Source of the DNA: Lutibacter sp. A80
Lineage (GTDB): Bacteria > Bacteroidota > Bacteroidia > Flavobacteriales > Flavobacteriaceae
Reading direction: 5' to 3'
NCBI RefSeq assembly: GCF_022429645.1
Contig: NZ_CP092480.1
Location: 2,958,501 to 3,022,500, forward strand
Length of the DNA stretch: 64,000 bases
A program made the translations under genes and the position numbers. The notes below the pieces were generated by a model. The model was not told the origin of the DNA. It made no database searches and was given only the letters and a program-made list of their open reading frames with translations. Shown here in pieces: positions 42,033 through 53,069 of the stretch. Within the stretch, counting starts at the first letter, position 1; each line of letters begins with the position of its first letter.

Positions 42033-42507
42033 ATTTGGTTTTTAAAACTTTAATTTTTTTTTATGCTAAAAGTGTGCCAAGTTTATTAAGTAGAGGCTAA
42101 GTAGATTAAAGTTGATGGTAACTTAACATATTGTTAATAATGAAATGCAAAATATTTTTTAAAACTGCTATTTAAACTTCAAACTTAAAAACATCTCTTA
42201 AGTTTCTTAATATCAATTTTTTAGTTTATTTTTATTATTAAACTGTAAAATGTGGTTAAGAACTTCTTTTTTTAAAGTGTTAATTTTATGTAATCATTGT
42301 CTGTTAGGGTTTTTTTGGGAGTTATTTCTTTTAATTTTGATCTTAAATCTGTAGGGTATTTTCATATATAAAAAATAATAAAACCATAAAAAAACACTAC
42401 ACTAGGCTGTTATAATTTATTATAAACACTACATAAGTGTTTTAATCTGTTTATTTTCAGTAGTATAAAATTTTAAATAACCTACATTTTTTAAAGTGAA
42501 CTTTAAT

Positions 42508-42525
42508 AAGTGACATATGTCACTT
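42508..42525. promoter_or_regulatory. perfect 18-bp palindrome, candidate CRP/FNR-family operator
   Basis: AAGTGACATATGTCACTT is identical to its reverse complement. TGA (42511-42513) and TCA (42520-42522) are spaced by 6, as in CRP-family sites. The centre, 42516.5, is 36.5 bp upstream of the final G of the predicted -7 box, which puts it near -41.5, the class II activator position. No -33 TTG is present at usable spacing. Confidence 0.7.
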
Positions 42526-42545: not shown

Positions 42546-42553
42546 TAACTTTG
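42546..42553 (+). promoter_or_regulatory. predicted -7 box (TAACTTTG) of the phosphate cluster
   Basis: An exact TAnnTTTG match. Transcription would start near 42558-42560, about 13 bases before the ATG at 42572. The palindrome takes the place of the -33 element. Confidence 0.62.
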
Positions 42554-42571: not shown

Positions 42572-43222
42572 ATGATTAGAATATTTAAAACTTCCAAAAA
42601 TGTTATTCTAAATATTGATGAATATTTTGATACTGTTGAGTTAGGGATATTAAACTTTAAAGAAGGTATCAATAATTATTTAGAAGGGAATCTTTCTGAG
42701 TTTGAAAACAATTTAGATAAAGTTAATAAACAGGAAGAATCTGCTGATGCAATAATTAGAAAGATTGAAAATGATTTTTATGTACATTCTTTAATGCCTA
42801 ATTATTCGAGTGATATTTTAAGTCTATTAGAAAAAACAGATGACATTATAGATAAGATAAAAGATAATTTAAGTCAGTTTGATGTAGAAGATCCATATTT
42901 TCCAGAAGATATAAAAAATGATTTCTCAAGGTTGGTTTCTTTATCTGTAAAGTCTGCTGAAAATGTAATACCAGCAGCAAGAGTTTTTTTTACGGCTCCT
43001 AATTTAGTAAAAGATAAGTTACAAAAAGTAATTTTTTACGAACGTGAAACTGAAAAGTTAGCAACCAAAATAAAAAGAACATTGTTTAAAGACATGCCTT
43101 TTTTAAAGTTAAGTGAAAAAATACATTTACGTTATTTCACATTACATGTAGAACAGGTTGCCGAAGCATCAAAAGTAGTTGCTAAACTGCTTTCTTCATT
43201 AGTTATAAAAATAAAAATGTAA
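42572..43222 (+). CDS. DUF47 (PhoU-like) protein
   Basis: 216 residues, all-helical. The E/D-rich metal-type motifs of DUF47/PhoU-like proteins are visible: SADAIIRKIENDFYVHSLMP at about 57-76 and YERETEKLATKIKRTLF at about 160-176. DUF47 proteins are usually encoded immediately upstream of PiT phosphate transporters and are thought to modulate them; that is the case here, 14 bases apart. Cytoplasmic. First gene of the proposed phosphate transcript, with a palindrome and -7 box just ahead. Confidence 0.9.
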   Translation: MIRIFKTSKNVILNIDEYFDTVELGILNFKEGINNYLEGNLSEFENNLDKVNKQEESADAIIRKIENDFYVHSLMPNYSSDILSLLEKTDDIIDKIKDNLSQFDVEDPYFPEDIKNDFSRLVSLSVKSAENVIPAARVFFTAPNLVKDKLQKVIFYERETEKLATKIKRTLFKDMPFLKLSEKIHLRYFTLHVEQVAEASKVVAKLLSSLVIKIKM

Positions 43223-43236
43223 TAAAACAACATCCT

Positions 43237-44985
43237 ATGTTTTTATTCTTTTTATCAAGTGGTTTATTTTTAGGTTGGTCTTTAGGAGCCAACGATGCAG
43301 CTAATATATTTGGCTCTGCAGTAGGATCTAAAATGGTGAAATTTAGTGTAGCTGTTATTATTGCTTCTATCTTCGTTATTTTAGGAGCTGTATTACAGGG
43401 AGCTGGTGCATCGGATACACTTGGTAAATTAGGATCTGTAAATGCTATAGGTGGTGCTTTTACTGTTGCTCTTTGTGCAGGTGTTACAGTTTTTTGGATG
43501 ACTCGTTTAAAATTACCTATATCTACGTCACAAGCAATTATTGGTGCAATTATTGGTTGGAATTTTTATTCAGGGAATACAACAGATATTACTGTTTTAG
43601 GTAAAATTGTTAGTACTTGGGTAGCAGGGCCAATTTTGGGTGCTATTTTTGCAATTTTATTGTATTTATTGTTGAAATTCTTTCTTGAAAGAAGTCAAAT
43701 TCATCTCATAAAATTAGATGCTTATTTAAAATATGCACTTTTAATAATAGGTGCTTTTGGTGCTTATAGTTTGGGAGCAAATAATGTAGCAAATGTTGTT
43801 GGGGTATTTATACCTTCTGTACCCGATATTTATTTAGACTTTGGATTTTTTGCCTTAGATGGTATTCAGTTATTATTTTTAGTAGGTGGTATTTCTATTG
43901 CAGTAGGTATAGTAACTTATTCTAAAAAAGTAATGATGACTGTGGGTAGTGATTTAATGAAATTATCCGCAGAAGCTGCTTTGGTAATTGTGTTAGCACA
44001 TGCTATGGTTTTATTTATTTTTTCATCCTCTTCTTTATCAAATGCCATACAAAGTATTGGCTTACCAGGAATACCTTTGGTGCCAGTTTCAAGTTCGCAA
44101 GCTATTGTTGGTGCAATTATGGGTGTTGGCTTGTTAAAAGGTGGTAGAGGAATTAAATTTAATGTATTGGGTAGAATTTCATTAGGGTGGATTACCACAC
44201 CAATAATTGCTGGTTTTGTTTCATTTGTATCTTTGTTTTTTATGGACAATGTCTTTAAATTACAAGTGTTTAATGGCACAAATACAGCTTTAAAATCTGC
44301 AACTACTAATCTTAATAATTTACCAACTTCAGCTGAAACTGCTTTAAATATTAACTTGTTTCAACCTTTGTTATATACCATAATTATAATATTAATAGCT
44401 GTAATAATTGTTTTAGCATTAAAATTAACAAGCGACAAATTACATTCTAAAGATGAGCAATCAACAGATATAGTTAGAAAGTATAAAACACAAGAAGCCT
44501 TTTTAAAGACAGAATTAACTAAGGTAAATTCAGAAAATGCAGAGCTTGAAAAAGAAATTGAATTTAAAAGAAAAGAGCAAATGAATATTGCTTTAAGTAT
44601 TATTCAAAAGAATCGGTTTCTAGAAAAGTTACGAACTAAAATTGATGCAATAATAAATAAATCAGACACCAATCAAGAAGAGCTTTCGAACTTAAAAAAA
44701 CTAATTGTTGAAAATCTTAGTATTGATAAAGAACGTCAGCGTTTTAATATTTATATCAACGAATTAAATAGAGATTTTTATTTCAGATTGTTAAATAGAT
44801 ATCCGAACTTAACTGAGAACGAACAGCATTTATGTGCTTTAGTTCGCTTAAATTTAAGTTCAAAAGATATGGCTTCAATTTTAAATATTTCAACAAAAAG
44901 TGTTGAGGTAAACAGACATAGGTTACGGAAAAAAATGCATTTAAAACGCGAAAATAATTTATCGGAAATAATCAGTAAACTATAA
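43237..44985 (+). CDS. PiT-family phosphate transporter fused to coiled coil and LuxR-type HTH
   Basis: 582 residues in one uninterrupted frame. Residues 1-395 are a PiT (SLC20) transporter: first signature GANDAANIFGSAVGSK (about 17-32), its inverted repeat copy GANNVANVVGVF (about 184-195), and motifs PISTSQAIIGA and PVSSSQAIVGA. After the last membrane helix (about 375-395) come a long charged coiled coil (about 405-510, ending RFNIYINELNRDFYFRL) and an LuxR/GerE-like helix-turn-helix (about 522-582: NLTENEQHLCALVR, NLSSKDMASILNIST, KSVEVNRHRLRKKM). PiT proteins normally lack DNA-binding domains. The HTH is of the type found at the C-terminus of Bacteroidota TPR and triple-tyrosine regulators. 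With the N-terminus in the membrane, it would be a membrane-bound transcription factor. Next are an OprP-like porin and accessory genes. Confidence 0.9.
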   Translation: MFLFFLSSGLFLGWSLGANDAANIFGSAVGSKMVKFSVAVIIASIFVILGAVLQGAGASDTLGKLGSVNAIGGAFTVALCAGVTVFWMTRLKLPISTSQAIIGAIIGWNFYSGNTTDITVLGKIVSTWVAGPILGAIFAILLYLLLKFFLERSQIHLIKLDAYLKYALLIIGAFGAYSLGANNVANVVGVFIPSVPDIYLDFGFFALDGIQLLFLVGGISIAVGIVTYSKKVMMTVGSDLMKLSAEAALVIVLAHAMVLFIFSSSSLSNAIQSIGLPGIPLVPVSSSQAIVGAIMGVGLLKGGRGIKFNVLGRISLGWITTPIIAGFVSFVSLFFMDNVFKLQVFNGTNTALKSATTNLNNLPTSAETALNINLFQPLLYTIIIILIAVIIVLALKLTSDKLHSKDEQSTDIVRKYKTQEAFLKTELTKVNSENAELEKEIEFKRKEQMNIALSIIQKNRFLEKLRTKIDAIINKSDTNQEELSNLKKLIVENLSIDKERQRFNIYINELNRDFYFRLLNRYPNLTENEQHLCALVRLNLSSKDMASILNISTKSVEVNRHRLRKKMHLKRENNLSEIISKL

Positions 44986-45018: not shown

Positions 45019-46374
45019 ATGAAAAGTAAAGTTAGTACATTAGTTGTAGCATTAATTCTATTTGGAATAGGGTTAAATGCCCAAGAAAAAAAGGATAATA
45101 TTCGTATTAACCAATACGGACAAGAAGTAGAGGCAATTCCTCTACATACTGAGGCGCAAGATGGTTTTATCAAGTGGTTTTCAGAAGATGGTAATTATAA
45201 AATGTGGATGGATAACAGAGCTCAATTAGATGCGTATATGTTTTCTAATGATGCGTTAAACGAGCTAGGTAATGGTATTACAATACGTAGAATGCGTTTT
45301 GCTTTAAAAGCCGAATTTTGGAAAAATTGGTATGGAGAAATAGATTTAGATTTTGAAAGTTCTGGAACAGAAATTAAAGATGCTTATCTAAAATATACCG
45401 CAGATTCTAGAAAATGGGATATTAAAGCTGGTCATTTTAAAGAAGGTTATGGTATGGAAACTACTACAACTTCTAGATATTTATTATTTATGGAGCGATC
45501 TTTAGCTTCAACATTCGACCCTTCTCGTCATTTAGGTTTTCAAACAAATATTTATGCAAATAAGTTTTTATTTGTTGCAGGTGTTCACTTTAATACTGTT
45601 GGTGATGCTGAAGAAGTTACTATAACAAAAGATGCCAATAAAGATGATGGTGTAGATGAAGGATATTCTTTAACTGGTAGAGCTGTTTGGGCTCCTATTA
45701 ATGACAATGAAAAGTTACTACATATAGGTGTTGCGGCTACACATAGAACTCCAAAAACATATTGGGAAGGTGGTGCTTATAGACTTAGTACACGTTCTCA
45801 TTCAGTAGTAAATAGAAAAAAATTCTTAGATACTGATGATATTTCAGGAGTAGATAATGTTTTTGGTTATACGTTTGAATTAGCAGGAAAATATAAAGGA
45901 GTTATGTTCCAAGGAGAATATAAAGAACATAATGTTAATATGATTGATGGTATTGATGCTTCTTTTAAAGGTTATTATGCACAAGCAGCCTATTTATTAT
46001 TAGGTGGTAAACATAATTACAATACTAAAGAAGGTGAATTTACAAGAATTACACCAGGTTCTGATAAAGGAGATATTGAATTAGCTTTACGTTACGATTT
46101 TATTGATTTAAACGATTTTGATGCTTCAATTTATGGAGGATCAGCTGAAGGGTATTCAGCAGGTTTAAATTACTATGTTAATCCTAATGTAAAAGTTGCT
46201 CTAAATTATGTGTATCATAACCATGACCGTTTTGCAAATGGAAAAGGGAAATTATATGTAGGTACAGATGCTTCTGGAAACCCAACTAAAGATTGGTCTT
46301 TAGTAACAGAATCCGAAGGAGAAGCAGGTGATGATTATGGTCAGGTTTCTTTAAGACTTGAAGTTAATTTTTAA
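45019..46374 (+). CDS. OprO/OprP-family phosphate-selective porin
   Basis: 451 residues with signal peptide (ending GLNAQ). The porin O/P pattern is evident: NGITIRRMRFALKAEFWKNW, YGEIDLDFESSGTEIKDAYL, the AGHFKEGYGMETTTTSRY region, and a C-terminal QVSLRLEVNF. Such porins pass phosphate, pyrophosphate or polyphosphate through an arginine-lined pore across the outer membrane. It lies 33 bases after the PiT fusion gene and is presumably on its transcript, which strengthens a phosphate role for both. Some members transport other anions, so specificity is not proven. Confidence 0.88.
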   Translation: MKSKVSTLVVALILFGIGLNAQEKKDNIRINQYGQEVEAIPLHTEAQDGFIKWFSEDGNYKMWMDNRAQLDAYMFSNDALNELGNGITIRRMRFALKAEFWKNWYGEIDLDFESSGTEIKDAYLKYTADSRKWDIKAGHFKEGYGMETTTTSRYLLFMERSLASTFDPSRHLGFQTNIYANKFLFVAGVHFNTVGDAEEVTITKDANKDDGVDEGYSLTGRAVWAPINDNEKLLHIGVAATHRTPKTYWEGGAYRLSTRSHSVVNRKKFLDTDDISGVDNVFGYTFELAGKYKGVMFQGEYKEHNVNMIDGIDASFKGYYAQAAYLLLGGKHNYNTKEGEFTRITPGSDKGDIELALRYDFIDLNDFDASIYGGSAEGYSAGLNYYVNPNVKVALNYVYHNHDRFANGKGKLYVGTDASGNPTKDWSLVTESEGEAGDDYGQVSLRLEVNF

Positions 46375-46398: not shown

Positions 46399-47997
46399 AT
46401 GAAAAATTTAAAATATATAGTTCTAAGTATTATTATGTTATCTGCTACTATAGGTTGTGTAGAAGATGAGATGATGACAAAAGATGAGCCTATTGTAGAA
46501 GGTAGTGTGCTGAAATTAAATGAAATTATGTCGAAAGATGTAAATGATGCTCCAGATTGGATTGAAGTTTACAATAGTGGTACCACAGATATGGATATCT
46601 CAGGTTACTTTTTAAATGATAAAGCAACAGTAGGTGGTTATGAAATACCTTCTGGAACAATTATATCAGCAGGTGGTTTTTACCTTGTTGATGCTGACGA
46701 ATCTGGAGAGTCTATTAGTTCTGGAGGAGAAGATGTAGGTTTATTTGAGCCTGATGGAACAATTGTAGATCATACGGTTACACCAGATATGAGTAGTAAT
46801 GTTGGCTTAACTTGGGCAAGAGAAATTGATGGTGCAGGTGAATGGAAAATTAGTTCTCCAACTCCAAATTCTTCTAATGGGTCTGTTGCAAATACAGCAC
46901 CTTTTTTAGATGCTAGTTCCATTACTGAGTATACAGATGTTTATGCTGTTAGTGCATCAGATGCCGATGGTATTTCTTCAGTAAAATTAGTTCTTATTAT
47001 TGGTGAAAGTGTACAATCTTTAGATATGGCATTGGTAGATGGTGAGTACAAAACTTCTGTACCTAAAGCAAATGTTGGTGAGCTTGTACAATATTATGTT
47101 GTTGCAACAGATAATACTGGTTTAAAATCGTATTACCCAAGTAATGGAACTAACGAACCTGCAGAATTTTTAGTTGTTGGTGGTTTAAGTGAGTTAAATT
47201 TTGAAGGCGAAATAGATGGTAATAGAGGTAATGTTACTTTTACTGCTACACCATTATATCCAGAGCAAGTTGATGAATTAAGATTGTATTATTTATTACC
47301 TGGTGAACAACAAGATGAAGACAATGGTTTTGATGATAAGACTAAAATTGTAATGACTCAAAATGGTGATAGCTGGGAAGCTGTAGTTCCTGCTCTTAAT
47401 ATAGAAGGTGAAGTTCACTATTATATTAGAGTTGAATATGTAGATGGTACAAAAACGTATTACCCAATGGAAGAAGATGGTGGAGATTTTAATCACGATT
47501 TAGGTACAACTTGGCCTAGTTATACTGTTGAAGCCATAACATATAATGATGTTGTAGATACTACAATTACATCTACAGAAGGACCTTTAACAAGTTTAAC
47601 ATTTCCAACAAATCCAACTCCAGGATCAGATATTAACCTTGTATTAGCATATACTAGCTCTGAAGAAATTACAGAAGCCAGAGTTTATTTTGCTGTAGGT
47701 GATGAACCAGAATATATTAAAGCAAATAAAGTTTCTGGAGAAGATGATGCTACATTTACACAAACAGGTGTAACTATTAATTTAAAAGATGTTGTTACAG
47801 ATGGAGATGAATTATCTTTAAGCGAAACAGGAGCTAAAGTGTCATTCTATGTACGTATATCTACAGATACTGCAGAATACTACTATTCAAATACAGGAGC
47901 AATGTCTCTAGATGATACACCAGGCGGAGGAACTGTTGATGAGTCAGACGATTTTAAAGATGATCCAACACTTTGGAATGTTTATACAGTTCAATAA
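46399..47997 (+). CDS. lamin-tail-domain surface lipoprotein
   Basis: 532 residues. Lipoprotein signal with Cys20 (SATIGC). A lamin-tail domain fills about 35-150 (LKLNEIMSKDVNDAPDWIEV, GTTDMDISGYFLND, IPSGTIISAGGFYLVDAD). Two or three Ig-like beta-sandwich modules follow (VQYYVVATDNTGLKSYYP; VHYYIRVEYVDGTKTYYP). It is strongly acidic, which suggests cation or calcium binding. LTDs in bacteria commonly sit on secreted nucleases and phosphatases or surface proteins; here no hydrolase domain is fused, so it may bind or present one. It lies 24 bases after the porin. Confidence 0.8.
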   Translation: MKNLKYIVLSIIMLSATIGCVEDEMMTKDEPIVEGSVLKLNEIMSKDVNDAPDWIEVYNSGTTDMDISGYFLNDKATVGGYEIPSGTIISAGGFYLVDADESGESISSGGEDVGLFEPDGTIVDHTVTPDMSSNVGLTWAREIDGAGEWKISSPTPNSSNGSVANTAPFLDASSITEYTDVYAVSASDADGISSVKLVLIIGESVQSLDMALVDGEYKTSVPKANVGELVQYYVVATDNTGLKSYYPSNGTNEPAEFLVVGGLSELNFEGEIDGNRGNVTFTATPLYPEQVDELRLYYLLPGEQQDEDNGFDDKTKIVMTQNGDSWEAVVPALNIEGEVHYYIRVEYVDGTKTYYPMEEDGGDFNHDLGTTWPSYTVEAITYNDVVDTTITSTEGPLTSLTFPTNPTPGSDINLVLAYTSSEEITEARVYFAVGDEPEYIKANKVSGEDDATFTQTGVTINLKDVVTDGDELSLSETGAKVSFYVRISTDTAEYYYSNTGAMSLDDTPGGGTVDESDDFKDDPTLWNVYTVQ

Positions 47998-48042: not shown

Positions 48043-48798
48043 ATGATGCGTTTAAGTAAAATATTGTGTTTTACCATGGCTTTTATGGCCTTACTTTTAG
48101 CTTGTAATAAGAGCGATTCTAATGTTGAAGAAATAAATAATGATCTCGAACTTATTTCAAGTACTAAAATAAATGTATCAGAAGCATCAGGTTTGGCAAT
48201 TAATACATCAGGTACAACTTTATATACAGTTAGTGATAATACAAATAATATTTACCAGTTATCTACCGACGGAACAGTGTTAAAAGAGTACCCGTATAAC
48301 GGAGAAGATATTGAAGGAATTTCAGTAGTTTCAGCTAGTAAAGTAGTACTAGTTGAAGAAAGAGCTAAACAAATTGTTGAATACGATTTAATTCTAAAAA
48401 ATTATAAAAAAAATAATGTGATTTATGGTAATAACGAGTCCAACAGTGGTCTTGAAGGAATTGCCTATAATTTAAATGACAATACATTTTTTGCTATTAA
48501 TGAAAAAAATCCAGGAATATTGATGCGTTTAAGAACTGATTTTTCAATTATTGAATCTTATAATTTAGATTTTGCTTCAGATTATTCGGGAATATTTCAT
48601 GATAAAGAATTAAACATATTGTGGATTTTAAGCGATGAAAGTAAAACAATAAATAAATGCAGTTTAAAAGGAGTTCTAATTAAAAGTTATAAAATAGATG
48701 TTATTAAAGCAGAAGGAATAGCAGTAACTAATAGTAATATTTATGTAGTGAGTGATTCAAATTCTACACTATATAATTTTAAAAAACCAATTGAATAA
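48043..48798 (+). CDS. SdiA-regulated-family beta-propeller lipoprotein
   Basis: 251 residues. Lipoprotein signal with Cys21 (ALLLAC). The rest is a six-bladed-propeller type sequence: EASGLAINTSGTTLYTVSDN, YNGEDIEGISVV, NSGLEGIAYNLNDNTFFA, SDYSGIFHDKELNILWILSD, KAEGIAVTNSNIYVVSDS, a recurrent E-G-I/L-x pattern typical of the SdiA-regulated family, which is related to esterase-like phytases. Its metal and phosphate ligands cannot be identified by eye. In a phosphate cluster a phosphoester or phytate hydrolase role is attractive, but unproven. Confidence 0.78.
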   Translation: MMRLSKILCFTMAFMALLLACNKSDSNVEEINNDLELISSTKINVSEASGLAINTSGTTLYTVSDNTNNIYQLSTDGTVLKEYPYNGEDIEGISVVSASKVVLVEERAKQIVEYDLILKNYKKNNVIYGNNESNSGLEGIAYNLNDNTFFAINEKNPGILMRLRTDFSIIESYNLDFASDYSGIFHDKELNILWILSDESKTINKCSLKGVLIKSYKIDVIKAEGIAVTNSNIYVVSDSNSTLYNFKKPIE

Positions 48799-48825: not shown

Positions 48826-49467
48826 ATGACAAAACCAGCAATGAAAGTAGGCGAAATCTCAAAACCACGTTTTGAGTTTAGAACTTTTGGTCAAAACTTT
48901 GACCTAGAATCAAAATATATGGCACGTTTATCAGTGCCAATTCCAGAAAAAGTTTGGGAAAGAACTTCAGAAGAAATATATATTTTATCTAAAACCAACG
49001 ATATTAATAATACCAAAATACGCGATGGTAAAATGGATATTAAAACATTTGTACAAAGTGTTGATGGTTTAGAGCAATGGAATCCATTAATGAAAGGTGA
49101 ATTTCCAATTTCAAAACAAGTATTAGAAAACGATGTTTTTCCAGCATTTCAAGTTGCAATGCCAGCATTAACTAAAGAAACGTATACTCTAGAAGAATTT
49201 TTAGAAATGATTGATGCTAATCCAGATTTACAAGGAGTTCGAGTACACAAACAACGCTTTGGGTATATGGTAAATAATACTTTATGTGAAGTAGGAAATG
49301 TATTAATTAACGGAGCAAAAGTAGTAACTATTAATTCTGAATCTACAGAGTTAGATGATATTAAAAAAACAATTGTAGATTGTAAACTAGAAGGTGCAGA
49401 AAACATCAATTATTTACAAGCAATAAAACGTGTAATAGGTTGGATTAATAAACCATTAGCAAATTAA
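48826..49467 (+). CDS. uncharacterised protein with CYTH-like features
   Basis: 213 residues, cytoplasmic. I do not recognise a named family with certainty. A CYTH-like pattern is visible: an early RFEFRTFGQNF, then RTSEEIYILSKTNDINNTKI, RDGKMDIKTFVQ, and GLEQWNPLMKGEFP, similar to the alternating acidic and basic strands of triphosphate tunnel enzymes. It stands 12 bases ahead of a true CYTH gene, so it could be a paralogue or partner subunit. No ExExK motif at the N-terminus. The function is unknown; triphosphate or polyphosphate binding is a hypothesis. Confidence 0.6.
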   Translation: MTKPAMKVGEISKPRFEFRTFGQNFDLESKYMARLSVPIPEKVWERTSEEIYILSKTNDINNTKIRDGKMDIKTFVQSVDGLEQWNPLMKGEFPISKQVLENDVFPAFQVAMPALTKETYTLEEFLEMIDANPDLQGVRVHKQRFGYMVNNTLCEVGNVLINGAKVVTINSESTELDDIKKTIVDCKLEGAENINYLQAIKRVIGWINKPLAN

Positions 49468-49479
49468 AAATATAATAAA

Positions 49480-49953
49480 ATGGCACAAGAAATAGAAAGA
49501 AAGTTTTTAGTAAAAAACGATGATTTTAAAGAAGCTTCTTTTAATCAAACAAAAATAGTTCAAGGGTTTTTATCAACAGTTCCAGAACGTACTGTTCGTA
49601 TTAGAATTAAAGGAGATAAAGGTTTTATTACAGTTAAGGGTATTGGAAATAAATCTGGAGCCTCTAGGTTTGAATGGGAAAAAGAAATTTCTGTTAAAGA
49701 CGCTACAGATTTGCTAAAAATTAGTGAACCAGGTGTAATAGATAAAACACGTTTTAATGTAAAATCTGGAGAGCATACGTTTGAAGTTGATGAGTTTTAT
49801 GGTGAAAATGAAGGATTAACAGTTGCTGAGGTAGAACTTTCTTCAGAAGAAGAAGACTTTGTTAAGCCAAGTTGGTTGGGTGAAGAAGTAACAGGACAGG
49901 TAAAATATTACAATTCTATGTTAATGAAAAATCCTTATAAGGATTGGAAATAG
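49480..49953 (+). CDS. CYTH-domain triphosphate tunnel metalloenzyme
   Basis: 157 residues, the full domain alone. ExExK motif at Glu4-Glu6-Lys8 (EIERKF), followed by RTVRIRIKGDKGFITVK, FEWEKEI, KTRFNV, FEVDEFYGENEGLTVAEVELSSE, the tunnel's alternating charged strands. Members hydrolyse tripolyphosphate or related triphosphates, and a few are adenylate cyclases. No CHAD domain is fused. Placement between phosphate uptake genes and a DASS-type transporter fits a tripolyphosphate or polyphosphate role. Also known to be placed near such genes in Bacteroidota is only my impression. Cytoplasmic. Confidence 0.9.
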   Translation: MAQEIERKFLVKNDDFKEASFNQTKIVQGFLSTVPERTVRIRIKGDKGFITVKGIGNKSGASRFEWEKEISVKDATDLLKISEPGVIDKTRFNVKSGEHTFEVDEFYGENEGLTVAEVELSSEEEDFVKPSWLGEEVTGQVKYYNSMLMKNPYKDWK

Positions 49954-49992: not shown

Positions 49993-51588
49993 ATGAGTGC
50001 ACTATTACAAAATGGGTTTGATGTATTAGATATGAAAAACTATCGAATGGAGAAACTTCCTAAACGTGAAAAATCTAAATTTGAACAGTTTTTAATGCGG
50101 ATAGGAGGACCTTTGGCAATTATTTCTTTTGTACTCATTTTATTTGTTTTAAAAATACCATTTTTAGATAATTTAGATGTCGCAAACTTAAGTGAAAGCG
50201 CTCATAATAATCTAGAAAATATTGGGTTAGAAAAGTTTATTTTTTCTAATAAAGCAATGCTAGCAATCTTTGTATCTTCCTTAATTTTATGGATTACAGA
50301 AGCAATTCCTAATTATTTAACCTCTTTGATTTTAATTATAGCTTTGGTGTTAACACAAGTATTACCAGAACAAGTGGCTTATGCGCAATTAGGTCATAAA
50401 GTAATGTGGTTAAACATTATGTCATTTGTTTTGGCAAGCATGTTAGTGGCAACCGGAGTGGCTAAAAGATTTGCTCTTTGGTTTATAATTAAATTTGGGA
50501 AAAGTGCTTCTTCTGTTATTTTAAGTTTTATGGTTATTAATGTTGTGTTGTCTTTATTTATTTCAGCAACTACTGCAAAAACAGCTATTTTATTACCAGT
50601 TTTTATGGTAGTTGCTGCAATTTATGGAGCTTCAAATGGCAAAAAAAATAATGTAGGACGTAATGTGTTGCTTCAAAATTTATTTCAAAATAATATGGGA
50701 GCAAGTTCGTTTTTAACGGGTTCTGGGGCTAATTTGTTAGCAGCTTCGTTAATAGCAGGTGCCGTTGGAAGTGATATCTTTTTCTCGGAATGGATGATTG
50801 CTTCTTTTCCAGTTGCAATGGCTTTAATGCTAATAGGATGGATAATTGGTATTAAAATTATTTTTCCAATAAAAAAAGAAGATCGTGCGCCAAGTATTCC
50901 TGGAGGAATGGAAAGCCTTAAAAAAGACTTAAAAGATCTTGGTAAAATTTCGTTTACAGAAATTAAATCAATTATAATCTTTGTAAGTATTTTGGCTTTA
51001 TGGGTTACAGATAAATGGCACGGTGTTAGTCCTACTGCAGTAGCTTTTGTTGGTGCAATTATTGCTTTAATGCCTAAAATTGGTATTGTAAAGTGGAACG
51101 ATGTAGATATTCCTTGGCATTTATTATTATTCTCTGCCGGTGCTTATACTTTAGGTGCAGGTTTTAAGGTAACAGATCTTCCTTCAATATCTGTAAATGC
51201 ATCGTTTGATGCTTTAGGTTTTGGAGCAGAAACTCCATTTTGGGTTTTATATGTTGTATTAACTGCTGCAATGATTTTTAGTGCGTTATTTATGCAGTCT
51301 AAAACCATGCGAGCAATGATTTTTATTCCGATAGCTATTGGTATTGCAACACGTTTTAATTTTTCAATTATGAGTTTGGCATTTCCAGTAGCAATGTTAA
51401 TAGAACATGTATATACTTTGCCATTTAATAGTAAACCAGCGTTACTGTCATACTCTACAAATCATTACAGTATGTCCGATGGATTTAAATTTGGATTTAC
51501 GATGCAAGTTATTGCTTGGATTATGTCAATTGTAATGGCAATGACCTATTTTAAATGGTTAGGTATTACACCAAATGGTTTATTTTAG
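49993..51588 (+). CDS. DASS/SLC13-like anion transporter with altered SNT motifs
   Basis: 531 residues with about 11-12 membrane helices. The overall order and GGM-like loop (EDRAPSIPGGMESLKK) match divalent-anion:sodium symporters. The two SNT motifs, which bind Na+ and substrate, read SATTAKTAILLP (about 196) and QSKTMRAMIFIP (about 436), so the asparagines are replaced, the second by Lys. It could therefore use a different ion or an anion other than dicarboxylate. In yeast, Pho91 is a DASS-type phosphate carrier; here the location makes phosphate or polyphosphate plausible. The first 45 residues are a basic cytoplasmic extension. It starts 39 bases after the CYTH gene. Confidence 0.82.
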   Translation: MSALLQNGFDVLDMKNYRMEKLPKREKSKFEQFLMRIGGPLAIISFVLILFVLKIPFLDNLDVANLSESAHNNLENIGLEKFIFSNKAMLAIFVSSLILWITEAIPNYLTSLILIIALVLTQVLPEQVAYAQLGHKVMWLNIMSFVLASMLVATGVAKRFALWFIIKFGKSASSVILSFMVINVVLSLFISATTAKTAILLPVFMVVAAIYGASNGKKNNVGRNVLLQNLFQNNMGASSFLTGSGANLLAASLIAGAVGSDIFFSEWMIASFPVAMALMLIGWIIGIKIIFPIKKEDRAPSIPGGMESLKKDLKDLGKISFTEIKSIIIFVSILALWVTDKWHGVSPTAVAFVGAIIALMPKIGIVKWNDVDIPWHLLLFSAGAYTLGAGFKVTDLPSISVNASFDALGFGAETPFWVLYVVLTAAMIFSALFMQSKTMRAMIFIPIAIGIATRFNFSIMSLAFPVAMLIEHVYTLPFNSKPALLSYSTNHYSMSDGFKFGFTMQVIAWIMSIVMAMTYFKWLGITPNGLF

Positions 51589-51602: not shown

Positions 51603-53069
51603 ATGATACAAGATAACGTAAAAATACACGATAATTTTTCTTTAGAAATAAAATCTATTTATGAAATACTTTCTGAAAAGAAGAAAACTACCTATAATAC
51701 ACTTACGTATCTTTTTATTCCTAATGGCTTAAATATTAACAATCAAACCTATCCGAAATCTAAATTTTATAACGATGTTAAAGTATATATTAGGTACAAT
51801 GCATCTGAATATACGTTAGATGAAATTCTTAATGTAAAAACGGGGCCACTACATCAATTAATTAAAATTGTAAAAAAAATATCGGGTAAAAAAGTATCAA
51901 AAAAGAATAAGCTAGAGTTTGAATCTAGGGTTAAAATGTTGGGTGCTATTTTAAATAATACACTTAGAACAGCAACATTATTATTAAAAAATAACAGAAA
52001 ATCAGAGATAATAAAATCGATAGAATATTTTAATAAACTTAAAAAAGTTTTAGTAATCTATAGAGATTTGGTTTTACGTATTGAAGCCTTAAAAGTAGCT
52101 GAAGATTTAAAAAATACTATAAAATATGGAGATGAATATATTAGTAATATAATAAATTATTACTTAATTGTTTGGTTAGAGTTTTATAAAATTAATAATG
52201 TAGATAAAGAAATTTTAAAAGAATTAATTGCCTTTATTAAAGAGGAGCAAACCTATAGGAAATTACAAAATTTTGATGTTACTAATAGTGAAGATTATTT
52301 TGATGAAATACTGTTTCATAAAAGAAGTCAACTAAAAAAGTTTATAGAAAGTGTGTTGTTTTTAAATAGAGATATTAGAAAAGATGGCGCCTTTTTTGAA
52401 CAGTCTATATTTGCCTTTGCAGCGGGTTTAGCAATGGTTTTTTCTACAGCAGTTGCTTTTTATTACCAACAAATATACGGTAATTTTACCTTGCCTTTTT
52501 TTATAGCATTGGTAGTTGGTTATATGTTTAAAGATAGAATAAAAGCATCGATAGGTTTATTATTTGTAAGTAGAGCTAGTTCTTTTTATCACGATTTTAA
52601 AATAAAAATTAAAGATTCAGGGGCAAATTTAATTGGTATTGTTAAAGAAAATTTTACGTTTGTTCCGTTTAATAAATTAGGTCCAAAAGTTAAAAAACAC
52701 CGTTTAAAAAATAAATTTATAGCTGCAGATTATAATTTTTTAGGAGAGCAGATTATCCAATACAAAAAGAAAATTGTAATCTACCCTAAAAAATTTGGTG
52801 AAGAAATTTCTGACAATAGATTAAATAGTATTGTGGATATTACGCGTATAAATTTGTATAGATTTACTACTCAAATGGACGATCCAAAAAAAGAATATTC
52901 TTTACTAAAAAAAGGTAAAATTATTAATAGAGTAGGCAATAGAATTTATCATATAAATCTTATTCAAAAATTTTATACTGAAAAAGGAATAACATTTAAA
53001 CGGTATCTTGTAATTATGAATAGAAAAGGAATAAAACGCATTGAACCTATTGAATTGGATGCGTTATAA
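51603..53069 (+). CDS. large membrane protein of unknown function
   Basis: 488 residues, very Lys-rich (basic). No recognised family. The first ~255 residues are helical and charged, the centre has two adjoining membrane helices (about 266-285 and 293-310, FAAGLAMVFSTAVAFYY and LPFFIALVVGYMFKDR), and the last ~170 residues look like a soluble beta-rich domain (FTFVPFNKLGPKVKKHR; KIINRVGNRIYHIN). Both tails should be cytoplasmic. The many Lys residues could bind polyanions such as polyphosphate. It follows the DASS-type gene by 14 bases and appears to end the operon; a convergent gene begins right after. Confidence 0.7.
   Translation: MIQDNVKIHDNFSLEIKSIYEILSEKKKTTYNTLTYLFIPNGLNINNQTYPKSKFYNDVKVYIRYNASEYTLDEILNVKTGPLHQLIKIVKKISGKKVSKKNKLEFESRVKMLGAILNNTLRTATLLLKNNRKSEIIKSIEYFNKLKKVLVIYRDLVLRIEALKVAEDLKNTIKYGDEYISNIINYYLIVWLEFYKINNVDKEILKELIAFIKEEQTYRKLQNFDVTNSEDYFDEILFHKRSQLKKFIESVLFLNRDIRKDGAFFEQSIFAFAAGLAMVFSTAVAFYYQQIYGNFTLPFFIALVVGYMFKDRIKASIGLLFVSRASSFYHDFKIKIKDSGANLIGIVKENFTFVPFNKLGPKVKKHRLKNKFIAADYNFLGEQIIQYKKKIVIYPKKFGEEISDNRLNSIVDITRINLYRFTTQMDDPKKEYSLLKKGKIINRVGNRIYHINLIQKFYTEKGITFKRYLVIMNRKGIKRIEPIELDAL

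Follow-up and report, generated by a model that had tools for sequence, protein, structure and literature searches.

A PiT transporter fused to a LuxR-type helix-turn-helix in Lutibacter sp. A80 and its relatives, a candidate membrane-bound regulator of its own operon

The Amt-histidine kinase sensor of ammonium in Kuenenia is named Ks-Amt5. It is described as a transporter fold of the Amt family with a kinase as output domain (PMC5764959). In CbrA of Pseudomonas, the description given is of a complete secondary transporter of the SLC5 family, a helical linker domain and a signalling output on one chain, the output being a histidine kinase situated behind a STAC domain, and its authors suggest that rearrangements of the transporter could be passed to the kinase (PMC13022988). 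The output of both these transporter-sensor fusions found in print is a kinase. CadC/ToxR-type regulators are one-component proteins with a DNA-binding domain tethered to the membrane, and most of those in a survey are single-pass, with proteins of up to 22 transmembrane regions in the survey set (PMC10269533). In the PstSCAB-PhoU-PhoR-PhoB system, an ABC transporter reports phosphate to transcription by way of a separate kinase and regulator (PMC6978683). Two further points of comparison are the Bacteroidota regulators composed of a membrane helix, a coiled coil and a LuxR-type helix-turn-helix (HTH) (NCBIfam BT3442 family, NF053779) and the solved PiT transporter TmPiT (PDB 6l85).

On the window analysed here (a stretch of 64,000 nucleotides of the Lutibacter sp. 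A80 genome), a single frame of 582 residues was identified at 43237..44985 (+), encoding a PiT transporter, a linker, a membrane helix with coiled coil and an HTH of the LuxR/GerE type. A preliminary description of this DNA had read a complete PiT transporter, a coiled coil and a LuxR-type HTH in one frame, and this was confirmed. The parts of the protein are:

43237..44256, + strand: PiT transporter domain, residues 1-340 (PHO4 profile, solved PiT fold)
44257..44358, + strand: variable linker, residues ~341-374, partly disordered (pLDDT <50 at 348-367)
44359..44658, + strand: continuous helix, residues 375-474, consisting of an extra membrane helix (~375-400) and then a coiled coil
44782..44982, + strand: LuxR/GerE-type HTH, residues ~516-582 (GerE profile on the tail; DosR/NarL fold matches)

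The Pfam PHO4 score of 216.4 bits (cut-off 33.7) places the protein in the PiT/SLC20 family, and residues 1-340 were found to align with TmPiT and to have its fold. The 400-residue chain of TmPiT matches these residues only, and possesses two GAND motifs in comparison to the GAND and GANN found here. An HMM search of the tail and a structure prediction of the C-terminal part, both proposed as checks in the preliminary description, each identified an HTH. The tail alone scored 24.7 bits with the GerE profile (cut-off 23.5), with the whole protein scoring 22.1 bits and so falling below the cut-off, and the predicted fold of the tail is that of a NarL/FixJ-type C-terminal domain, with structure matches to DosR and NarL. 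The structure model used was obtained with an input of 79 sequences, a 4-sequence model being poor (pLDDT 48.5) and set aside. No HisKA, HATPase or receiver domains were found in the fused protein (Pfam, E 0.1), indicating a regulator of the one-component type, and the presence of an HTH and at least one membrane helix in a single chain assigns it to the transmembrane transcription regulators. The chains of PiT proteins end on the periplasmic side, and the linker of residues ~341-374 probably lies on that side also.

Comparison with the described systems showed that the fused protein is like CbrA and the Kuenenia sensor in having a transporter fold and an output domain within the same chain, CbrA also having a helical linker domain between the two. 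It differs from both in that its transporter fold is that of PiT and its output is an HTH, with no kinase domain found. It is like the CadC/ToxR-type regulators in its tethered DNA-binding domain, but most of those surveyed are single-pass. It may sit unremarked in the lists of that survey (PMC10269533), the main text of which does not contain the terms LuxR or GerE and contains 'transporter' once, in a reference. The NF053779 regulators share its membrane helix, coiled coil and HTH but not its PiT part; residues 370-576 matched positions 352-554 of that model with 26.1 bits (cut-off 940), and tail-only matches start at query residues of at least 325 among the matches listed. With the Pst system, as described in PMC6978683, it would share the reporting of phosphate to transcription by a transporter, with a PhoU-like neighbour in common, whereas here a single chain with a PiT fold takes the place of the ABC transporter and the separate kinase and regulator. 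No PiT-LuxR fusion was found in the titles and abstract starts of open-access (PMC) papers. As transporter-kinase fusions and membrane-bound regulators are already known, what appears to be new here is the pairing of PiT with LuxR as a variant. A transporter joined to a DNA-binding domain would, if true, be the shortest path from a membrane substrate to a promoter, and the fusion would give a simple sensor of phosphate or sulfate.

A search for PiT and LuxR-type HTH in the same protein had also been proposed in the preliminary description. Named genomes were scanned and the best 80 of 560 confirmed stretches were analysed (designated L-numbered loci), of which 43 were found to possess an HTH tail, 22 a short tail, 8 no tail and 5 another tail, with 2 cut by the contig. 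Loci L044 and L052, the contigs of which end within the coiled coil, were counted as HTH loci, while L046 and L056, whose contigs stop short of the HTH, were left out of every HTH tally. The HTH of L069 is degenerate by eye, its tail scoring 49.9 bits versus at least 90.8 bits for the other uncut HTH tails. Among these best 80 of 560, fused loci were found in Flavobacteriaceae, Bacteroidales, Saprospiraceae, Chitinophagaceae, Salinivirgaceae, Lentimicrobiaceae and one Ignavibacteriota MAG, the nearest named relative being Lutibacter litoralis (L034; 89% in the PiT part). A draw of genomes from the family contained this PiT in 5 of 299 (E 1e-20), all with frames of 583-609 codons and therefore fusion-sized. 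A draw from the phylum contained it in 13 of 395 (E 1e-50) and, on frame lengths alone, a fusion-sized frame (599) was present only in Lutibacter sp. A80, the others being of 391-404 or 492-528 codons. A local accident or an assembly error as the source of the fusion was rejected, since it recurs in related loci.

A PiT tree with 81 rows separated those of Bacteroidota and Ignavibacteriota (44 HTH, 22 short, 2 cut) from 13 rows belonging to other phyla, all of which are without HTH. The HTH rows do not form one clade (AU p 5e-7) and five changes are required, which can be read from the tree as one gain of the HTH and about four losses (a short-tail clade of 19 rows, L059, L064 and L078). A single origin of the tail fits, because 28 PiT-linked tails form one group that is separate from 26 LuxR paralogs (SH-aLRT 93). 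Lineages without the HTH, or without its function, represent natural controls.

The short-tail clade consists of Bacteroidales loci (L063, L066, L072, L075, L076, L079, L080, L082, L083, L087-L090, L094, L096, L098, L101, L103 and L108). By eye, a hydrophobic segment is kept where the extra membrane helix stands, followed by a short conserved stub (SEEKFWKNIK, for example, in part of the clade). Neither an HTH nor a two-box locus was identified in this clade, and none of the 18 loci (of 19) in which the neighbourhood could be assessed has a porin gene alongside. A different C-terminal tail, of ~140-155 residues, was observed in PiT relatives from other phyla (L070, L073, L097, L104 and L107).

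The frame is part of a same-strand cluster with the following genes:

42572..43222, + strand: DUF47/PhoU_div protein of 216 aa, the gene of which opens the cluster (PF01865, E 2.2e-19)
45019..46374, + strand: Porin_O_P outer-membrane porin, 451 aa (PF07396, E 1.7e-41)
46399..47997, + strand: Lamin Tail Domain (LTD) protein, 532 aa (PF00932)
48043..48798, + strand: SdiA-regulated/phytase-like protein, 251 aa (PF06977, E 1.9e-29)
48826..49467, + strand: 213-aa orphan (no Pfam or NCBIfam match)
49480..49953, + strand: CYTH-domain protein, 157 aa (PF01928, E 8.1e-15)
49993..51588, + strand: DASS (Na_sulph_symp) anion symporter, 531 aa (PF00939, E 2.6e-47)
51603..53069, + strand: 488-aa orphan, end of the cluster (no family match)

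The DUF47/PhoU_div gene precedes PiT in relatives too. A Porin_O_P gene adjoins the fusion in 37 of the 38 HTH loci for which sufficient DNA was available versus 1 of 30 others (best 80 of 560; 12 indeterminate), L069 being the sole exception among the 38. Only three supported independent contrasts were obtained for HTH and porin on the tree, two that agree and one with no difference; the adjacency was rejected as proof of function for this reason and serves as context. The LTD protein is situated at the same place in L042 and L065, and several of the downstream cluster genes have look-alikes, by eye, after the PiT gene in L034, L042, L059 and L084. Look-alikes of the 213-aa orphan were also observed near the operon in L034, L042, L065, L084 and the unfused L059. 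The DASS symporter scored 185.6 bits with TIGR00785, under the cut-off of 198.6.

Upstream of the cluster, the following elements were identified:

42393..42401, + strand: box 1, AACACTACA, candidate operator of the HTH (PWM 12.6 bits)
42425..42433, + strand: box 2, AACACTACA, 32 bp after box 1 (PWM 12.6 bits)
42478..42486, + strand: degenerate box 3, TAACCTACA (by eye; below the PWM threshold of 6.5)
42508..42525, no strand: perfect 18-bp palindrome, AAGTGACATATGTCACTT, probably an Fnr/Crp-type class II site
42546..42553, + strand: TAACTTTG, Bacteroidota-type -7 promoter element (TAnnTTTG match)

The last of these owes its identity to TAnnTTTG, which we take to be the -7 consensus of Bacteroidota; no TAnnTTTG was found in L081 and L095. 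The boxes (AACNCTACA) lie upstream of the promoter as helically phased direct repeats and their positions are kept in relatives, box 3 being near a conserved offset of -67/-68 from the -7 box. In the 64-kb window, 42393/42425 is the sole pair of sites of at least 9.5 bits at a distance of 20-60 bp. The pattern ACACTAC-N10-40-ACACTAC occurs once in the 3.93-Mb genome of Lutibacter sp. A80 and once in that of G269, both times at this operon. This exact pair is absent from the fused genomes G116 and G146, occurs once in fused G134 on a contig other than that of the fusion, and is no commoner in fusion-less genomes than a reversed control. A looser pair pattern has a second match in Lutibacter sp. 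A80, within a frame of 550 codons.

Allowing one mismatch on either strand, ACACTAC was found upstream of the palindrome in 12 of 14 Flavobacteriaceae fused promoters (shuffled maximum 7-8). Forward, reverse and shuffled matches per promoter, also with at most one mismatch, were 2.42, 0.26 and 0.76 for Flavobacteriaceae fused loci (19), 1.52, 0.20 and 0.71 for other fused loci (25), and 0.13, 0.06 and 0.24 for loci that are not fused (31). A de novo search without a seed in 22 other fused promoters returned CCCTACA among its top words (19 of 22; shuffled 5.8), along with CGCTACA (17; shuffled 4.2) and ACGCTAC (15; shuffled 3.4). The short-tail set gave unrelated words with a similar z-score, and word counts are therefore weak alone. 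A PWM derived from the 14 Flavobacteriaceae promoters identified 61 forward and 8 reverse sites in the 22 other fused promoters at threshold 6 (shuffled mean 22.7, largest of 20 shuffles 34), and the reciprocal PWM identified 34 forward sites versus 1 reverse and 7.3 shuffled in Flavobacteriaceae at the same threshold. For the 19 short-tail loci, these values at threshold 6 were 7 forward, 8 reverse and 10.2 shuffled, and 6, 4 and 4.8 with the other PWM. At threshold 7.5 the same loci gave 6 forward and 3 reverse sites (shuffled mean 2.6, maximum 5) with no two-box locus, and because of these six forward sites their single boxes are not fully at background. The near-duplicate or cut loci L038, L039, L040, L044, L046, L052, L056, L109 and L110 were excluded from the cross-PWM test, and loci lacking a usable 150 bp upstream (L062, L076, L078, L083 and L104) are outside all box counts.

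Using a PWM from both sets at threshold 6.5, at least two boxes were found in 36 of the 42 loci whose HTH is intact or presumed to be so, as against 0 of the 32 others (best 80 of 560), L069 with its degenerate HTH being counted among the 32. The former figure was 34 of 42 before the gene starts of L077 and L109 were corrected, each having four boxes near the opening of the frame. In the Lutibacter group of L035-L040 the HTH is kept and fewer than two boxes reach the threshold; the boxes of this group have drifted. No boxes were found in L059 (HTH lost, porin kept) or L069 (HTH degenerate, porin gone), while L084 and L091, the sisters of L059, possess them. On the tree, HTH and boxes give from three (supported branches) to five (all branches) independent contrasts, with p 0.25 at best; agreement in the three supported contrasts is 2.9 of 3 on average with none opposed, a number too few for significance.

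Box offsets from the -7 element are often close to -165/-153, -121/-127 and -67/-72, and in some cases to -35/-39, although L053 and L084, for example, depart from this; common spacings of box pairs are 11, 21, 32, 43, 54, 86 and 97. The period is 10.9 bp with R 0.65 versus at most 0.26 in 1000 random placements, a descriptive value in that related loci were pooled and the PWM that called the boxes had these promoters as its training set (eight of the nine loci above were excluded from this offset and period test, L109 being kept). Among ten loci listed for the gap between PiT and porin, this gap (80-269 bp) contains no boxes in eight fused loci (L053, L054, L055, L062, L065, L067, L086 and L110), the gap of L058 (464) contains two, and in L112, which is unfused, the porin-like gene is at a distance of 3 kb; on these loci there is no regular second box site between PiT and porin. 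The Pho box of E. coli consists of direct repeats of CTGTCAT. On this ground a reading of the boxes as PhoB boxes was set aside, although some loci do have pairs 11 bp apart.

The observed architecture, its conservation, the selection on the HTH and the co-occurrence of boxes with the HTH lead us to favour, as the likely explanation, a membrane-anchored one-component regulator with a PiT-fold transporter as its sensor, the HTH of which activates its own operon from the boxes. The fused protein, from its position in the membrane, is likely to regulate its own genes directly. From the periplasmic end of the PiT domain, the added membrane helix would return the chain to the cytoplasm, where the coiled coil would dimerise the LuxR-type HTH. 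The HTH would then bind several AACNCTACA boxes that share one face of the DNA and lie between ~-67 and ~-170 relative to the -7 element. This binding is inferred from co-occurrence, because the short-tail clade, L059 and L069 are without the array and the sisters of L059 have it. Because the boxes share one face upstream of the promoter, the protein would act as an activator in the form of several dimers, activating and not repressing DUF47-PiT-HTH-porin and probably the later genes too. Activation would follow the state of the transporter, as suggested by the architecture and by analogy with CbrA, and in Flavobacteriaceae an Fnr/Crp-type regulator may provide a second, class II input. The locus would offer a clean case for how a membrane-fixed protein finds its operator, with the protein, one likely target and candidate boxes named. 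With evenly balanced confidence, we propose further that these proteins form a kinase-free transceptor family in which a PiT transporter is the DNA-binding activator of its own operon, reading transport or substrate occupancy without a soluble messenger on phased, membrane-docked boxes; such a family would be ancestral to the Bacteroidota-Ignavibacteriota PiT clade and repeatedly lost along with the boxes.

The boxes could alternatively be bound by an unlinked regulator (e.g. PhoB-like or another of LuxR type) with the fused HTH acting elsewhere. Many LuxR-type paralogs of the tail are encoded in Flavobacteriaceae, the independent contrasts on the tree are few, and such a regulator could have been gained and lost together with the tail. 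Even so, this appears unlikely, as loci that lack the HTH or have a degenerate one lack the boxes too, including L059 with its retained porin, as the Lutibacter sp. A80 genome contains the strict array a single time, unlike the sites of a global regulon, and as the fused HTH is under strong purifying selection.

Values of dN/dS were 0.005-0.12 for the HTH (8 pairs), 0.037-0.096 for the PiT part (7 pairs where computable) and 0.028-0.26 for the coiled coil (5 pairs), and 0.2-0.46 for the linker with membrane helix (counted as 341-400; 7 pairs), which in most pairs exceeds the other three parts; several dS values are near saturation. Purifying selection thus acts on the HTH, which has a lower dN/dS than the transporter part in 5 of the 7 pairs that can be compared, and its KSVEVNR-RLR recognition region is invariant in a four-row alignment. 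These results, and the co-occurrence of boxes with the HTH, argue against the tail being a dimerisation or anchoring module on a transporter that works alone, with an HTH that regulates nothing. Such a role would agree with the HTH having been lost about four times on the tree as read, implying that the transporter manages without it, with the retention of a degenerate HTH in L069, and with the single boxes of short-tail loci at threshold 7.5 and the operons of G116, G134 and G146 without the exact pair; we regard it as very improbable.

Returning to direct activation through the boxes as the preferred reading, the preliminary description had named the adjacent promoter and the palindrome as natural targets. 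The promoter region likely is a target, by way of the other boxes ~20-115 bp upstream of the palindrome, whereas the palindrome does not hold up. It contains TGA-N6-TCA, presumably the core of an Fnr/Crp-type site, which 17 of the 19 Flavobacteriaceae fused loci (best 80 of 560) have at a similar position, and it was first favoured as the operator of the HTH for this conservation before fused operons, being also a perfect 18 bp whose distance from the -7 box is inferred to be that of a class II activator. However, TGATANNTRTCA with TANNTTTG 22-24 bp downstream, that is, TGA-N6-TCA at this distance from TAnnTTTG, was identified in 20 of 25 fusion-less relatives as well as in 5 of 5 fused genomes, with one control match across all 30. 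In Lutibacter sp. A80 it occurs at eight places, namely five named genes, two without a Pfam match and one without a downstream frame. The named genes (Pfam) are feoB, pckA and those of a FixN/FixO-type (cbb3) oxidase, a metal P-type ATPase and a cytochrome c read as norC-like, and TGATAnnTRTCA with TAnnTTTG lies ahead of these five at C1:906803, 909268, 2285730, 3557660 and 3683165. Binding of the palindrome by the fused HTH was ruled out as the working reading by the pckA, oxidase and feoB sites, and is now considered extremely improbable. Because motif and spacing recur before oxidase, feoB and pckA genes and in fusion-less relatives, the palindrome is most likely an Fnr/Crp-type site, a general element of Flavobacteriaceae.

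One of these sites was found between the metal P-type ATPase gene and an opposite-strand gene of 228 aa with a Crp/Fnr-type HTH, and five Crp-type HTH genes are present in the genome. The exact TGAYATATRTCA occurs at only three places of the genome: at this operon, before pckA and ~225 bp before galT. TGA-N6-TCA lies upstream of pckA in three of the four fused genomes for which the gene start was reached (G000, the genome of Lutibacter sp. A80, G269 and G134; not G146), the start not being reached in G116, which is outside this count. It also lies there in three of 25 fusion-less genomes (G025, G047 and G002), an estimated chance rate or so for loose matches, and in these three the spacing of 23-24 bp to the TAnnTTT box is kept by eye, which likewise speaks against the palindrome as operator of the HTH. 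The copy at 42508-42525 has C/G inside where relatives have T/A.

Regarding the substrate, D20 of the first motif (GAND) is retained and the second motif is GANN, with N183, in 79 of 79 sequences, fused or not. Both Asp residues are described as essential for phosphate in PiT, with CysP carrying Gly and Asn there (PMC5840216), and the protein does not possess the Asp in both GANDVANA motifs that marks a phosphate-specific PiT by that description. The best NCBIfam model was the CysP sulfate permease (NF053884), with 76.5 bits, far under the equivalog cut-off of 400. Because of the DUF47 neighbour and the family name of the porin, phosphate appears more likely than sulfate as the substrate.

A second PiT was observed in the Lutibacter sp. 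A80 genome (L002; G000:C1:2922479-2923876, minus strand, 750 aa), with no LuxR-type tail visible by eye in its listed sequence. Furthermore, two similar PiT copies (L041 and L046) were observed on separate contigs of one Lutibacter MAG, which may be a real pair or the result of a mixed bin.
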